Source: Neobacillus cucumis (GTDB lineage Bacteria; Bacillota; Bacilli; Bacillales_B; DSM-18226). From it: a stretch of 64,000 nt of DNA. The translations under genes were made by a program, and so were the position numbers. Below the pieces are notes generated by a model, which saw only the letters and a program-made list of their open reading frames with translations, did not search any database and was not told the origin of the DNA. Location: assembly GCF_023715505.1 (NCBI RefSeq), contig NZ_JAMBOH010000009.1:149861-213860 (forward strand), written 5' to 3'. Positions 3,139 to 35,737 of this stretch are shown here, one piece after another. The first letter of the stretch is position 1. Every line of letters begins with the position of its first letter.

Positions 3139-3534
3139 TATGAAATGGCTGTAAGCCAGGTTCTGTACTTCCGTACTGTAAACGGCAGCTAGCCTTGTAC
3201 AGGAAGTAGTAGTCATATAACTATCGACCAATGGTCAATTCATCCGTTTGGTTCATTTCCCGCAGGATGATGCCCCTACCTAATTTGGGTTGCTCGCTCG
3301 TGGGGTTTACCCGTTCCACCTTTTCCGTTTCCAGAAAAGCATCGTCACTGTGGCACTTTCAGGTTACTCTCAGCATATCTCGAAGACTTAGCATGATTTC
3401 ACCGCCGTCAGCCGACCTTAAATCGACCGCCCACCCTTGCAGATGGCACGAACACTACAGGCATCTCAGCACTGTGCGAGCCTGGACTTTCCTCAGCTCC
3501 TTAAAAAGGAACCGCGACTACTCACCATTTCATA
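3139..3534 (-). ncRNA. rnpB: RNase P RNA, B type
   Basis: On the minus strand this reads as a bacillar RNase P RNA, the catalytic subunit that matures tRNA 5' ends. Seen: CR-I GAGGAAAGTCC; the segment TGCTGAGATGCCTGTAGTG; the specificity-domain block GAAAGTGCCACAGTGACG; GGTAAACCCC followed by GAGCGAG; and 3' CR-V ACAGAACCTGGCTTACAG. P1 is a perfect 10-bp helix between 3525-3534 and 3139-3148. P2 pairs GTAGTC with GACTAC. The 3' part of the catalytic domain (P15 to CR-IV) differs clearly from B. subtilis. The neighbours are not gpsB/ypsC as in B. subtilis. Length is about 396 nt. Confidence 0.9.
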
Positions 3535-28348: not shown

Positions 28349-29219
28349 ATGGATGAACAGGACTGGATCATCTTAAAGGTGCTATACGAAAAGAAGAATA
28401 TCACGAAAACAGCTGAAAGTTTATATATATCCCAACCATCATTAACGAAAAAAATTCAACAAATAGAGAAGGAATATCAAGTAGAAATCGTCATACGGGG
28501 TACAAAAGGAGTTCATTTTACACCTCAAGGAGAATACCTAGCTCAGTGTGCAGATGAAATGCTGAATCGTCTCCAACAGATTAAAGATAGAGTACTTAAT
28601 ATGGGTGAAGAAGTTAGTGGAACCTTACGCTTAGGGGTTTCTAATTACATAACAAGGCACAAGCTGCCACAGCTTTTAAAGCTTTTTCGTGAACAGTTCC
28701 CAAAAGTAAATTATAAAGTTACAACGGGATGGAGCAGGGATGTGTTTAATCTTGTTTATTATGGGGATGCTCATATTGGGATAGTCCGTGGGGACTATCA
28801 GTGGCCAGATTAAAATACTACTCTTTGAAGAAAATCTCTGTGTAACTTCATTAGGAAAAATTGAACTTTGTGATTTGCCTTCTCTGCCGCGAATTGAATA
28901 TGAAACAGATGCTTTACTAAAGACGATGATTGATAATTGGTGGAGTGGGGAATTTTCTCAGCCGCCTTTTATAGGTATGGAAGTGGATAAAGCCGATACA
29001 TGCAAGGAAATGGTATTGAATGGATTGGGATACGGAATACTTCCTAGTGTTCTTGTTCAAGAGCATCAAAACCTTCATCAGATCATTCTAAAAGATAAAA
29101 AAGGGAATCCTATAGTGAGAAGAACTTGGATGTTGTATCATGAAAAATCACTTGGAACCAAAGTAATTAAAGAGTTTGTAGAATTTGTGAAAAAATTGGA
29201 TTTTAAATCTACTATTTAA
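28349..29219 (+). pseudogene. LysR-family regulator gene with one frameshift
   Basis: Two frames together give a full-length LysR regulator of about 289 aa. Part 1 (28349-28813) holds the HTH (ITKTAESLYISQPSLTKKIQQIEKEY) and the first effector subdomain up to GIVRGDYQWPD. Part 2 (from about 28808) continues KILLFEENLCVTSLG ... GYGILPS ... EFVEFVKKL. One extra base near 28808-28812 separates them. Either the regulator is dead or this is a sequencing error. It precedes a likewise frameshifted AEC transporter, a common target of such regulators. Confidence 0.8.
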
Positions 29220-29813: not shown

Positions 29814-30741
29814 ATGGGCGTTTTATTTCATATTATGTTAAATGTTATTTTACCAATATTTGTTCTTATTGGTGCTGGTATATTTCTTCATAGACAATAT
29901 AAATTAGACATGAACACCTTATCTAAATTAAATTCATATTTACTAATGCCTGCTGTGAGCTTTACCAATGTATATCAGAGTAAAATAAAAGGAGATACGC
30001 TCCTTGAGATTCTTAGTTTCCTTGTAATACAAGGTCTTTGTTTAATGATCGTCAGCACAGGATTATCTAAAATGGCGAAATTTGAGAGCAGTCTTTCATC
30101 TACCTTTAAAAACAGTGTTGTACTAAGCAATTCGGGGAACTTTGCATTACCTGTCAGTCAAATGGTATTTCAGAATAATCCTCTGGGTCTATCAATCCAA
30201 GTTGGTCGTCATGGTTTTTCAAAATCTCTTAACTTATACATATGGATTATTTAATTCTGTTTCTGTTGATAAAGCAAAATTCCAAGCGATAAAGGCATTT
30301 TTAAAAAATCCTGTCATCTACGCTTTTTTGTTTGGGGTTTTTCTCCATGCCTTTTCAATAAGAATACCAGAATACATATGGACACCTATAAAAAATACTT
30401 CAAACGCATTTGTAGCGATCGCACTTGTTACACTTGGTGCACAAAGTGCTTTTCTAAAAATAAGTCGTTTTTCTCTGCCTTTAATTCTAAGTCTAATTGG
30501 AAGGCTAATTCTTTCACCCTGTATTGCGTACATCATCATATTAGCATTGAAGCTGGACGGTACGATCGCACAGTCATTGTTTATTGCGAGCTCTTTTCCA
30601 ACTTCAAGAAATAGTTCGTTGTTTGCACTAGAATATGGAAATCATCCTGAATATGCTGCACAAGTCGTTTTATTGTCTACTGTATTCAGTATGATGACAG
30701 TAACCACAGTTATTTTTTCTGCTCATATGTTATTTTCTTAA
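29814..30741 (+). pseudogene. AEC-family transporter gene with one frameshift
   Basis: Reads as an AEC (auxin efflux carrier/malate permease) protein of about 308 aa if a single extra G near 30203-30208 is removed. First half: ILPIFVLIGAGIFLHRQYKLDMNTLSKLNSYLLMPAVSF and NSGNFALPVSQM. Second half: FLKNPVIYAFLFGVFLHAF, ALVTLGAQSAFLK, GRLILSPCIAYI, SSFPTSRNSSLFALEYGNHPEYAAQVVLLST. AEC carriers move carboxylates such as malate. Adjacent to a frameshifted LysR gene, so the pair may have been lost together. Confidence 0.8.
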
Positions 30742-32880: not shown

Positions 32881-33132
32881 ATGGAGTTTAACCTGGAAGT
32901 ACATTTAAATATTGATGAAACTGGTCTATTAGCTAGAGGAAGATTTTCAGCAAGGAAAAGAGAAGAAATGTCAAACGTTGCCCACCAGTACATACAAAGC
33001 ATAAAACGAGAAACTGGGTACCGTAAAACGTTAATTGAAAAGGTAATCGTTAACGGCACAGAAGACATAACAGGGGAAGTAAAAAAAATAGAAAATAGGC
33101 CGATTCCACCTATGGATGACATTTTTTGGTAA
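32881..33132 (+). CDS. Hypothetical protein, 83 aa
   Basis: GAGGTG precedes ATG. The chain reads EVHLNIDETGLLARGRF, a basic helix (ARKREEMSNVAHQYIQSIKRET), IEKVIVNGTEDITGEVKKIE, and ends PIPPMDDIFW. The pattern suggests a small beta-alpha-beta domain. Not recognised. A bidirectional terminator follows. Confidence 0.6.
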   Translation: MEFNLEVHLNIDETGLLARGRFSARKREEMSNVAHQYIQSIKRETGYRKTLIEKVIVNGTEDITGEVKKIENRPIPPMDDIFW

Positions 33133-33147
33133 GAGTTGACTACAAAT

Positions 33148-33184
33148 GAAAACCCCTTCAGATTGGATTGAAGGGGTTTTTAAA
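33148..33184. terminator. Bidirectional Rho-independent terminator
   Basis: AAAACCCCTTCA/TGAAGGGGTTTTT: A and T runs on both sides, between convergent genes 32881-33132 and the EamA transporter. Confidence 0.9.
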
Positions 33185-33189
33185 TACTA

Positions 33190-34062
33190 TTATTTTTCTT
33201 TGATAACGAATAAAACACCTGTGAGAATTAGGATTGAGCCGATCCAAAACGTTACACCTATGTTCTCTCCTAAAATAAGCCATCCAAGTAATGTTCCAAC
33301 CACGGGTTGAAAGAAGAAAAATATTCCTCCACTTGAAGCGTTAAGCATTTGTAATCCACGATTCCAAAGTAGAAATCCACCTGCAGTTGAGACAATACCC
33401 AAATACAAGATTCCTCCCCAAATGGTCGGGTGAGTCAGTTGAGAGATATTAATTTCATGTAACCGTGGCAAAACAAAAGGAGTCAACACGATTAAGGCTA
33501 CCAAGATGGAATAGGTGGTTACCACTATTTGTGAATAATCACTTGGCAAACGCTTAACAAGTACTGACATAATTGCCCATGTTAAAGCTGCCATAAGTAG
33601 TGCAATACCTCCAAGTGTACTGGACATGTTCATGTCACCAATTCCAACAATCAGAAGCACTCCAATTGTCGCTAACAAAACGGAGATTACCTTTTTCAAC
33701 GTCAACCGTTCTTTAAGGATTAACCGGGCAAAAATAACCATAAATGCTGGTGTGGAAGAAGTTATTATCGCTCCCATTTGTGCTGTAGATAGCATTGTAC
33801 CAGTTTCCTGAGCAACAATTGAAATGGCATTCCCAATGATTCCAATGGCTATGATTATTAAAAAATAACGTTTTTCGATTCGCCATTTTTGCCTTGTTAT
33901 GAACCCGATAATGAGAAGTGCGACAATAGCCACTATATATCGTAGCCACACAAGTTCTAGTGGAGGTATGACCGCTACTACAACTTTTACAACAACGTAC
34001 ATACCGCCCCAAATACTTGAGGCTAAAATTAAATATAAGGAACCTAATAAGGTGTTTTTCAT
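33190..34062 (-). CDS. EamA/DMT-family transporter under a leader-peptide attenuator
   Basis: 290 aa, ten membrane helices in two EamA repeats. Seen: LGSLYLILASSIWGGMYVVVKVVV at the start of repeat 1, GIALLMAALTWAIMSVLVKRL at the start of repeat 2, and the closing GWLILGENIGVTFWIGSILILTGV. DMT proteins of this kind export amino acids, metabolites or drugs; the substrate cannot be read from sequence. GGAGGG is 9 nt before ATG. The 165-nt leader can fold so that this ribosome binding site is paired, and codes a short peptide (see 34060-34239). Monocistronic with its own terminator. Confidence 0.85.
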   Translation of the reverse strand: MKNTLLGSLYLILASSIWGGMYVVVKVVVAVIPPLELVWLRYIVAIVALLIIGFITRQKWRIEKRYFLIIIAIGIIGNAISIVAQETGTMLSTAQMGAIITSSTPAFMVIFARLILKERLTLKKVISVLLATIGVLLIVGIGDMNMSSTLGGIALLMAALTWAIMSVLVKRLPSDYSQIVVTTYSILVALIVLTPFVLPRLHEINISQLTHPTIWGGILYLGIVSTAGGFLLWNRGLQMLNASSGGIFFFFQPVVGTLLGWLILGENIGVTFWIGSILILTGVLFVIKEK

Positions 34063-34239
34063 TTTTTTGTACCCTCCGTCTTTTGTTTAGGTCGAAAATA
34101 CCCCTAACGGAGAGATGTAGTCACCTTCACGCCATTAGGAGCAGAAGCGTGCTACAGGTATATCATTTTCAAATAATGGGGTCCAATACATTTTAATTCA
34201 CCTCTAATCCATCTAAATAATTTTCTAATTTTTATTATA
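34060..34239 (-). promoter_or_regulatory. Candidate translational attenuator: promoter, leader and switchable RNA stems
   Basis: Minus strand. Extended -10 promoter TTGCTATAAT (-10 at 34239-34234). Stem 1:2: TGTAGCACGC (34156-34147) with GCGTG (34132-34128) and CTACA (34120-34116). Stem X:3: CCTAATGG (34139-34132) with CCGTTAGG (34110-34103), eight pairs with one U-G. Stem 3:4: CTCCG and TTAGG (34112-34103) with CCTAA (34091-34087) and CGGAG (34078-34074), which includes the transporter Shine-Dalgarno. X:3 and 3:4 exclude each other. The leader stop codon lies in X. Confidence 0.7.
34135..34191 (-). CDS. Leader peptide, 18 aa, upstream of the EamA transporter
   Basis: ATG at 34191 follows GAGGTG with normal spacing. 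The product is MYWTPLFENDIPVARFCS. Codons 12-14 lie in stem 1 and the TAA lies in segment X of the attenuator. A ribosome held within the last third would open stem 1:2 and free X to pair with 3, exposing the transporter start. A ribosome that terminates normally would cover X. No known arrest motif is obvious; an inducer that stalls ribosomes, or shortage of an amino acid coded here, are both possible. Confidence 0.6.
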   Translation of the reverse strand: MYWTPLFENDIPVARFCS

Positions 34240-34468
34240 GCAACTTTATTCAGCCTGTGTGTTAAGAAATTATTATAAGTAGAATGTGAAGTGCACTTAA
34301 AGTAAGGGTGCGTTAGCAATAAAAAAACCATCTATCGATTTTTCACTATTAACATCAGTAAAGGAATTTCTAATTTTATTAACGGAACGAGCAGTTATCG
34401 ATAATTCTTGGTTGAATCTTCGATAAATTTGTATAATATTTTTGTGAGTTATTAACTGCGAGAGGTCG

Positions 34469-34836
34469 ATGAGAGAGATGAAAATTAAAAAAATCGTGAA
34501 TAGGATTTTTGTGAACAACCTAGATGAAGCTATCCATTTTTACGAAGGACTGTTTCAGACCAAAGCAACAAGATTCAACTATTGGGATAAAAAATTGGAC
34601 ATTGCCGCTTTAGGAGACTTTTTACTAGTTAGTGGGACTGATGAAGATTTAGCAAATATACGAGATTCACTATCTGTTTCTTGATAGATGATATTCACGC
34701 TTATAAGACTTGGCTGTTGGATAATGGGACCGTAATACGTCAAGATATTACGAAAGACTTTTCAGGCTACAACATGATTGTACAACAACCAGATGGTACG
34801 GTGGTTGAATATGTGGAACATAATTTTAGTTACTAA
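34469..34836 (+). pseudogene. VOC-family (glyoxalase/dioxygenase-like) gene with one frameshift
   Basis: Frame 1 (34469-34684) reads KKIVNRIFVNNLDEAIHFYEGLFQTKATRFNYWDKKLDIAALGDFLLVSG; after one missing base near 34678 another frame continues DDIHAYKTWLLDNGTVIR ... GYNMIVQQPDGTVVEYVEH. Together about 122 aa with the beta-alpha-beta-beta-beta VOC fold and the terminal Glu of VVEYVEH as possible metal ligand. Broken by a one-base loss in a T run, or a sequencing error. Confidence 0.75.
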
Positions 34837-34962
34837 GTAAAGAGCAAATAATAAACTAAGTTGGGCGAATACATAAAAATGCTTCACAGAGTATGATGAC
34901 CATGTGCAACAGACCTTGAGAGTGCCGCAAAAAGAATGATTGTGAAGAAATGTATTTTAATT

Positions 34963-35035
34963 AACGGGTGCATAACTTAAAGATCCGGCTTTAGTTTCTG
35001 CCGGATCTTTTTCTTCAGCTAATGGCAGGTAAGTA
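34963..35035 (+). repeat. Dispersed GGGTGCA...AGCTAA element, copy 1, with terminator core
   Basis: ACGGGTGCATAACTTAAAG box, AAGATCCGGC/GCCGGATCTTTTTC hairpin (34980-35013), then CAGCTAATGGCAGGTAAG box. The same two boxes around a different hairpin recur at 39290, 42895, 43482, 46225, 46705 and 56300. Confidence 0.65.
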
Positions 35036-35116
35036 GAAAAAATTTAAAAACAAACAAAAAGAGTTACTTCCAATAGCAAACCTTTTAAATCAACTCCTGG
35101 GAAAATGTTTTATTTC

Positions 35117-35737
35117 TTATAATTGAGAGATCGCCTGTTGTGTTGACCATGTAGCACTGCTGAATGCCTGATAATTTGTTACAGCTGCTTGAAAATCCTT
35201 CTCACTTATGGTGGCAGTGGCATCATAAACAACAGCTGTTTGGAATCCATTTTCGATTAAGTCTCTCATATGCGATTCTACACAAATGTTTGATAGGACG
35301 CCTGCCAGAATGACCTTTTCTTTCCTGTGCTGACGTAATTGGTAAACAAGATCATTTGTCTGTGGACTGGCAATCTTATGGGCGGTCGCAATGACTGTTT
35401 GGTTAGCTAAAATATATGGCTTAAGGGAAGGAACCCAGTCGGCTCCTACAGAAGTATAGTCATTTTGTTTTTGATATACTCGAAGATTTAATAACATTTC
35501 TTGTTCAGCTCCGGTAAATTGCCAACTATAATCATGGGGATATATATAATGGGGTGATATAAAAAGTTGATATCCTTTATTCATGGCTGTACTTATTAGA
35601 ATTTCAAGGTTACCTAGTGTGTTGTAATGTTTAATAATTTTTTTTGTTAAATGGTACCCTTTACCTCCGGGGGACAGATAGTCATTTTGTGGGTCCGTTA
35701 TTACAATTGCTGTATTAGCGGGATTAGGTTTAAACAT
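35117..35737 (-). CDS. Isochorismatase-family cysteine hydrolase
   Basis: 206 aa. NTAIVITDPQNDYLSPGGKG holds the catalytic Asp, and LAGVLSNICVESHMRDLIENGF the nucleophilic Cys with its typical cis-peptide neighbour. HKIASPQTNDL marks the expected Lys region, though the order differs slightly from nicotinamidases. Family enzymes hydrolyse isochorismate, nicotinamide, ureas or similar. M at 35737 is used because GGAGGAAA lies just upstream; 30 extra codons further upstream look non-coding. No partner gene is near. Confidence 0.82.
   Translation of the reverse strand: MFKPNPANTAIVITDPQNDYLSPGGKGYHLTKKIIKHYNTLGNLEILISTAMNKGYQLFISPHYIYPHDYSWQFTGAEQEMLLNLRVYQKQNDYTSVGADWVPSLKPYILANQTVIATAHKIASPQTNDLVYQLRQHRKEKVILAGVLSNICVESHMRDLIENGFQTAVVYDATATISEKDFQAAVTNYQAFSSATWSTQQAISQL

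Follow-up and report, generated by a model that had tools for sequence, protein, structure and literature searches.

A candidate ermC-like translational attenuator with a conserved leader peptide upstream of an EamA-family transporter gene in Neobacillus cucumis and its relatives

Introduction

In the ErmCL/ermC system, as reported, a leader peptide is encoded ahead of the gene, a stem-loop hides the ribosome binding site, and an alternative stem forms when the ribosome stalls in the leader (PMC4191407, PMC5118997). An exporter can also stand under leader-peptide control, as with the 53-codon ORF BmrB, which is reported to govern the ABC transporter bmrCD of Bacillus subtilis by transcription attenuation (PMC4191407). 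For MsrDL, the leader peptide of msrD, a stall at termination with erythromycin and control of transcription termination are reported (PMC10314930). TnaC and SpeFL are described as having a ligand site made jointly by the nascent peptide and the ribosome, again with a stall at termination (PMC8429421).

The locus described here lies on the minus strand of a 64,000-nucleotide stretch of Neobacillus cucumis DNA (contig NZ_JAMBOH010000009.1), referred to below as the window, and consists of a short leader ORF followed by a gene for an EamA/DMT-family transporter. It resembles ermC in having a leader peptide and, as predicted here, a stem that hides the ribosome binding site and an alternative stem upon stalling, and it differs in an unlike peptide, in an EamA exporter in place of an rRNA methyltransferase, and in the other switch layouts that occur around the same core. 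Since the regulated gene encodes an EamA transporter and not an erm methyltransferase, we speak of an ermC-like working and not of an erm system. With BmrB/bmrCD the locus would share an exporter under a leader peptide in a Bacillaceae species; BmrB, however, is described as acting by transcription attenuation, whereas the window leader holds no terminator-like site. The nascent peptide would be very short and placed at the tunnel entrance, as reported for MsrDL (PMC10314930), but MsrDL is described as stalling at termination and controlling transcription termination, in contrast to the elongation stall predicted here. A ligand site built from nascent peptide and ribosome together would be common to the locus and to TnaC and SpeFL; these differ in being described with a termination stall and with Trp and ornithine as ligands. 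Set apart from BmrB, MsrDL, TnaC and SpeFL, the arrangement is rated as known logic with a new sensor peptide and a new target family.

Rfam gave no match to the leader, either across the whole window at gathering scores or in 33900-34400 at E-values up to 10. The core peptide strings had no match in the literature covered, which was mostly open-access papers without preprints, and among the matches listed from that literature no leader-regulated EamA gene fitted. SecM arrests with Pro-tRNA in the A site, is much longer, and is relieved by pulling force; Pro as the incoming residue at the predicted stall is thus a likeness, and the much greater length of SecM a difference.

The leader-eamA locus

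The transporter gene, eamA, encodes 290 amino acids and runs from an ATG at 34062 to 33190 (minus strand, as are all features below unless stated; Pfam PF00892, E 3.4e-49). Six NCBIfam families matched its product, every one under its cut-off. Upstream, separated by a gap of 72 nt, stands a predicted leader ORF of 18 codons (MYWTPLFENDIPVARFCS, stop included; 34135-34191), with its ATG at 34191 and its TAA ending at 34135. The initial annotation had claimed a frame with its own GAGGTG ribosome binding site, and this Shine-Dalgarno sequence is indeed present at 34204-34199. Its claim of an extended -10 promoter is borne out as well, by TGCTATAAT at 34242-34234 and by the enrichment of the motif across relatives: the exact form TGNTATAAT occurs in 17 of 107 related upstream regions, compared with 19 of 2140 mononucleotide shuffles. 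In a generic sigma-70 scan, 33000-35200 had 3 promoter-like sites, below the mean of 7.9 in shuffled sequence. Because the promoter motif sits upstream, a transcription start inside the leader is less likely.

The leader-eamA transcript has a likely intrinsic terminator at 33149-33180, a 12-pair stem with a T-rich tail; terminator-like sites in 33000-35200 numbered 2, against 1.6 expected. The same scan found none in the window leader, which accordingly lacks the intrinsic terminator that marks transcription attenuators of the BmrB, VmlR and MsrDL type.

Conservation of the leader peptide

One scan of genome contigs supplied the best 80 EamA loci, 66-92% identical and from genera that include Neobacillus, Bacillus, Peribacillus, Lysinibacillus, Paenibacillus and Sporolactobacillus; with the window added, the set comprises 81. 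The codon pattern F-E-x-D-x-P is found upstream in 80 of the 81, and the sole miss, L028, has a leader recognisable by eye with Tyr at position 7, so the leader exceeds chance in the loci compared. As the search pattern itself fixes F, E, D and P, a fair count has to include L028, and it gives Phe7 in 80/81 and Glu8, Asp10 and Pro12 in 81/81. The core common to the leaders is P-L-F-E-x-D-V-P. Among 80 leaders, position 9 is Asn in 71, His in 4, Gln in 3, and Leu and Lys in 1 each, while position 11 is Ile solely in the window and otherwise Val. Residues beyond Pro12 vary widely, as would be expected if they serve RNA pairing.

Leaders of homologous genes, whose comparison the initial annotation had proposed, conserve this core as a peptide. 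Among the one-step variants of the commonest codons at positions 5-12 (34156-34179, the proposed arrest core P-L-F-E-N-D-[V/I]-P), 14 of 15 synonymous changes are seen, as against 3 of the 57 nonsynonymous (80 leaders; Fisher p 3e-11, phylogeny ignored). Counting L028 in gives 4 of 57 nonsynonymous (p 1.4e-10, phylogeny likewise ignored), and row differences across these codons amount to 123 synonymous vs 14 nonsynonymous. Pro12 is encoded by CCA, CCT, CCG or CCC, and Val11 by GTA, GTG or GTT, with GTA in 73 of 80 leaders of the best-80 set plus window.

Distribution of the leaders

The back-translated PLFExDVP pattern was found in 9 of 10 genomes holding the gene and in 45 of 261 genomes in the order of genome G001. 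With Val, Ile or Met allowed at position 11, it was found in 5 of 398 genomes phylum-wide, in 12 of 198 in the order of G005, and in 11 of 199 in the order of G002. Reversed as a control, the pattern turned up in 2 genomes, each of them from the G002 order. Sixty-one matches were classified (L081-L142 without L133, with L081-L089 repeating loci of the best-80 set), of which 58 are short leaders, all before an EamA gene, and 3 (L122, L138, L139) lie within longer frames. No class was given to 16 of 46 matches in the order of G001, to 6 of 36 from the FENDQP search described below, or to L133, L185 and L194. On viral contigs the pattern matched four times, in each case within a frame of between 74 and 1254 codons. 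The gene is present in 11 plasmid records, four of which were examined: the Priestia, B. badius and Niallia plasmids carry the leader, and the Selenomonas homologue, 48% identical, is without one.

Seven of the 58 leaders (L098, L108, L112-L116) precede a distant EamA group that is 22-25% identical, and in L112 the EamA gene starts 299 nt past the leader stop. In L098 and L108 a putP-type sodium/proline symporter gene, assigned by family test in the former and by similarity in the latter, ends 47 nt before the leader on the same strand.

A second class of leader carries FENDQP in place of FENDVP. Of 101 genomes searched at the protein level, 23 had a match, and 11 of the 23 EamA genes have a leader by pattern, six of them repeating earlier loci (L143-L146, L148, L149); by eye, L150 has a variant leader, ATECDVP, and L147 a decayed one. 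Among 15 EamA homologues at 40-51% identity, five have FENDQP and 10 have no recognisable leader. The FENDQP pattern matched in 33 of 219 genomes and its reversed control in 11, so that many of these matches are chance. Twenty-eight FENDQP loci were classified, of which 14 are in short frames and 16 are not leaders; 12 of the 14 in short frames precede EamA genes 44-50% identical, three of them repeating earlier loci. Three of the leaders read MLFENDQPAAC[S/F], with the start read by eye, and the shortest have 12 codons (e.g., MLFENDQPAACS).

In a FastTree tree of 144 EamA sequences, midpoint-rooted, the V leaders fill one clade (111 of 113 tips) and the Q leaders occur in its sister (14 of 22). 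The exceptions in the V clade are L037, whose frame exceeds the length limit used, and the decayed L147. The distant EamA group sits on a long branch, with a leader in 6 of 7 by the tree test, which missed L112. Given the V and Q clades and this long-branch group, it seems that the leader has passed between transporters of only distant relationship.

Two loci show the element altered. L126 has a natural deletion that takes out the attenuator and brings the stop codon of the leader onto the start codon of eamA (MMWSPLFENDVPAGTK), an overlap that may couple leader and eamA. In L147, the decayed leader reads LFENDVH, then stop, with altered arms, before a 69% identical EamA gene.

RNA helices between leader and eamA

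Mutually exclusive helices can be drawn between the leader and eamA, one of which would bury the eamA Shine-Dalgarno sequence. The OFF helix 3:4 was described in the initial annotation as CTCCG paired with CGGAG of that sequence, and we find this pairing between 34112-34108, in arm 3 (34103-34112), and 34078-34074, in arm 4 (34072-34078), which is the Shine-Dalgarno CGGAGGG. Arm 3 is shared with the proposed ON helix, X:3, which also lies where it had been placed: X (CCTAATGG, 34139-34132) pairs with the arm 3 segment CCGTTAGG (34110-34103), and the leader stop codon falls within X, as had been noted. The annotated stem 1:2 likewise exists, but in place of the stated overlap with leader codons 12-14 it is best drawn with arm 1 (GTAGCACGCTTC, 34144-34155) on codons 13-16, just downstream of codon 12, and arm 2 (GAAGGTGACTAC) at 34117-34128.

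Pairing was examined by partner swaps over 107 distinct leaders, from which L028 (missed by the pattern), L126 (lacking the attenuator), the distant EamA group, the repeats L081-L089 and identical cores had been dropped; these statistics and those that follow take no account of phylogeny. Arm 3 was located by its likeness to CTCCGTTA, and in 5 of the 107 (L038, L062, L118, L120, L121) it matches at fewer than 7 of 8 positions and is perhaps misplaced. For 1:2, the duplex with its own partner has -13.8 vs -10.6 kcal/mol when swapped, and the own partner beats the swapped mean in 94 of 107. The corresponding values are -14.1 vs -12.9 kcal/mol for X:3 (own better in 90 of 107) and -12.0 vs -11.6 kcal/mol for 3:4 (60 of 107). 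In eight hand-picked divergent leaders, X:3 gives -17.9 for own and -9.8 for cross pairings, with the own partner best in 5 of 8 rows, and 3:4 gives -13.2 and -10.5, with the own partner best in 2 of 8 and one more tied.

Alignment A3 (41 rows; L201 and L203 without the leader 5′ part, L001 and others without the arm 4 end, gapped cells set aside) contains 11 cells with two-sided changes, all in 1:2, vs 5.0 in shuffles, a value reached by 1 of 500. The covariation score of 1:2 plus 3:4 was reached by 0 of 500 shuffles, and the number of pairs with two-sided changes showed no excess (4 vs 3.4; 228 of 500). On the same alignment X:3 is 96% paired and hardly variable, with a covariation score that is not significant (reached by 67 of 500 shuffles), and X is invariant in alignment A2, where the rows of the L0xx loci lack the Shine-Dalgarno and which gives no counts. 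More differs between types: where most FENDVP leaders have AACGGAG/CUCCGUU/UUAACGG, L169 has AAGACGG/CCGUCUU/AAGACGG. Taken together, covariation appears strong for 1:2, moderate for X:3, mainly between types, and weak for 3:4. The compensatory pairs that the initial annotation had proposed to look for are therefore found in 1:2 and X:3, the stems keeping their pairing, with a weak signal for 3:4.

These comparisons show a short leader peptide with the core F-E-N-D-[V/Q]-P and a set of alternative helices ahead of eamA, the two being conserved jointly. Taken by itself, 34050-34230 has a folding energy that does not stand out (z -1.16), 24 of 200 shuffles folding equally well. Given the full alignment A1, RNAalifold returned helix 3:4 alone, with seven pairs and almost no covariation, plausibly because arms 1 and 2 shift between types; the partner-swap and type-wise tests replaced this fold. 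L113, L115 and L116, in the distant group, are built more simply, the final codons of the leader pairing with the Shine-Dalgarno itself.

A fourth helix was tried and rejected, in which GUACC of codons 11-12 would pair with GGUAC after the eamA Shine-Dalgarno. The own partner was better in 59 of 107 (p 0.057), and 14 leaders without GTACC had 4.29 vs 4.18 pairs, which leaves pairing unsupported as a reason for GTA at Val11. A check for U-runs among relatives found TTTTT after the leader codons in 9 of 107. In L182, a U-run follows the X:3 hairpin, 3′ of arm 3, and has a terminator-like look, with a sign opposite to that of the proposed switch.

Modelled effect of ribosome position

We modelled a ribosome on each leader codon, with the RNA removed up to its leading edge, and read out the unpaired share of the eamA Shine-Dalgarno. 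Over the 107 leaders, mean accessibility is 0.06 without a ribosome and 0.29, 0.42 and 0.25 at codons 10, 11 and 12, returning to a predicted OFF state (0.05 or less) at codons 15-18. In the model the Shine-Dalgarno is thus most open when codon 11 occupies the P site and Pro12 the A site, which is where the conserved core ends, and the end of conservation at Pro12 and the RNA geometry therefore indicate the same stall place. Where exactly the peak falls varies with the footprint chosen, leading edges of +14 to +19 giving codons 10-12. Shuffled leaders are flat at 0.19-0.26, and switching is seen in 31 of 50 sampled real vs 6 of 200 shuffled leaders.

The sharpness of this peak varies with leader type. 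Leaders of the 17-codon type peak sharply, with codon 11 best in 40 of 46, while the window's type is broad (mean 0.34, 0.32 and 0.23 at codons 11, 12 and 13), with codon 11 best in 28 of 61 and codon 12 in 16 of 61, and with its peak at codon 13 when scored by the share of leaders above 0.5. The window leader itself rises from 0.01 to 0.33 at codon 11. Modelled opening is partial, exceeding 0.5 at codon 11 in 28% of the 107 leaders.

The FENDQP class played no part in forming the stall-site idea. In its 14 distinct leaders, accessibility is 0.17 without a ribosome and peaks at 0.47 when Gln occupies the P site and Pro the A site; the peak falls on this codon exactly in 6 of 14 and within one codon in 11 of 14, and 8 of 14 switch vs 9 of 112 shuffled. 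Among the direct-hairpin leaders, L113 and L115 are open with the ribosome at codon 10 or any later one and do not reclose, and L116 reaches 0.1 at most. The ermC-type logic put forward in the initial annotation finds support in this model, through its shuffle controls and the second leader class.

Proposed mechanism and alternative explanations

We consider it likely that the locus works by ermC-like translational attenuation through a new family of arrest peptides, FEND[V/Q]P, with a stall before Pro turning the exporter on. Without ligand, leader ribosomes would run through, helices 1:2 and 3:4 would form, and the eamA Shine-Dalgarno would be buried. With ligand, the nascent peptide would arrest the ribosome when codon 11 (Val or Gln) occupies the P site and Pro the A site. 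Here, the stalled ribosome would cover arm 1 and break 1:2, freeing X to capture arm 3, so that the Shine-Dalgarno in arm 4 would be released and eamA translated. The exporter would then remove the ligand or something linked to it.

As to what is sensed, a chain of seven residues cannot reach far down the exit tunnel. Seven is the number polymerised at the predicted stall in the 12-codon leaders, which would place sensing near the peptidyl-transferase centre or in the upper tunnel and favours a ribosome-binding small molecule over sensing of export or force; our leading guess for the inducer is a compound acting near the peptidyl-transferase centre. On balance we lean towards the fuller proposal that FEND[V/Q]P is a new ligand-dependent arrest family, for which seven polymerised residues suffice in the upper tunnel, which senses a ribosome-binding compound or metabolite, and which is portable to two distantly related EamA groups and several switch layouts, the stop before the same Pro freeing the exporter's ribosome binding site in each. 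If right, this would be an arrest peptide unlike those in the literature compared, and would put EamA exporters under nascent-peptide control. It would also offer a direct route to substrate, as whatever stalls the ribosome at FEND[V/Q]-Pro is probably linked to the exporter's cargo, and the 12-codon form would give a compact system for studying how a ligand, together with a few residues, silences the peptidyl-transferase centre.

The same switch could instead respond to a free amino acid or metabolite sensed by the peptide, as with TnaC or SpeFL, with eamA exporting the excess. The retention of an eight-residue core across genera would fit a specific ligand site, and among the curated families that the two EamA groups match, all below cut-off, are two of amino-acid exporters, YddG and RhtA, together with TIGR00950 and the drug/metabolite exporter YedA. 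We nevertheless regard this reading as unlikely, since a termination stall is reported for TnaC and SpeFL (PMC8429421), as opposed to the elongation stall predicted here, and since the shortest leaders are predicted to stall with only seven residues polymerised. Some opening at codons 10-13 follows from geometry alone, which would suit a general monitor of translation stress, where any slowdown of elongation raises eamA and no peptide-specific arrest occurs; such a monitor, however, leaves both the purifying selection on the peptide and its reuse by two distantly related EamA families unaccounted for, and is improbable.

Scarcity of an amino acid was the other inducer that the initial annotation had offered beside a ribosome-targeting compound, and this part of the suggestion is less likely, because the core is conserved as a peptide, synonymous changes are free, and no codon run exists. 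A starvation-type attenuator, stalling for want of a charged tRNA (e.g., for Pro, Val or Asp), would draw on the invariant Pro codon in the A site of the modelled stall, and the use of GTA for Val11 in 73 of 80 leaders is a caveat in its favour. Against it, the leader has no run of one amino acid's codons, the feature of starvation or trp-type attenuators; Glu8 and Asp10 never vary and Phe7 hardly does, although these residues have by then entered the tunnel; and Pro12 is served by four codons and Val11 by three, with Gln replacing Val in the FENDQP class. We hold it to be very improbable. A reading in which conservation belongs to a riboswitch or some other RNA motif, with an incidental reading frame, is hardly plausible: the arms are conserved too, but codons 5-12 lie outside the proposed helices with mostly synonymous differences (123 vs 14), Rfam offers no match, and from the FENDVP to the FENDQP class the arms change in sequence but the peptide core is kept.

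Genomic neighbourhood

Within 240 nt 3′ of eamA, csaA is present in 6 of 80 loci (L026, L034, L035, L041, L048, L080), and on the Priestia plasmid pBM500 (L201) it lies upstream of the leader. The small protein it encodes has a tRNA-binding domain (in L048 matched to Pfam PF01588), and a link to translation through this neighbourhood is possible. As a clue to substrate the neighbours offered little, csaA being the commonest non-EamA family, in 6 of 88 neighbourhoods. Searches of plasmid, viral and PDB sequences and with PADLOC gave no function for eamA, and its homologues (the best 120 of 1982) carry nothing beyond generic transporter names.

Elsewhere in the window, a short glyoxalase-like fragment, named by eye, lies at 34469-34684 on the plus strand, divergent from the leader; it is apparently a broken gene, to which Pfam gives no match. 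LysR-like and AEC-transporter-like genes, named by eye from their translations, occupy 28349-29219 and 29814-30741 on the plus strand, each over two overlapping frames, and are either pseudogenes or the product of sequencing errors. An RNase P RNA of bacterial class B is located at 3147-3529 on the minus strand.
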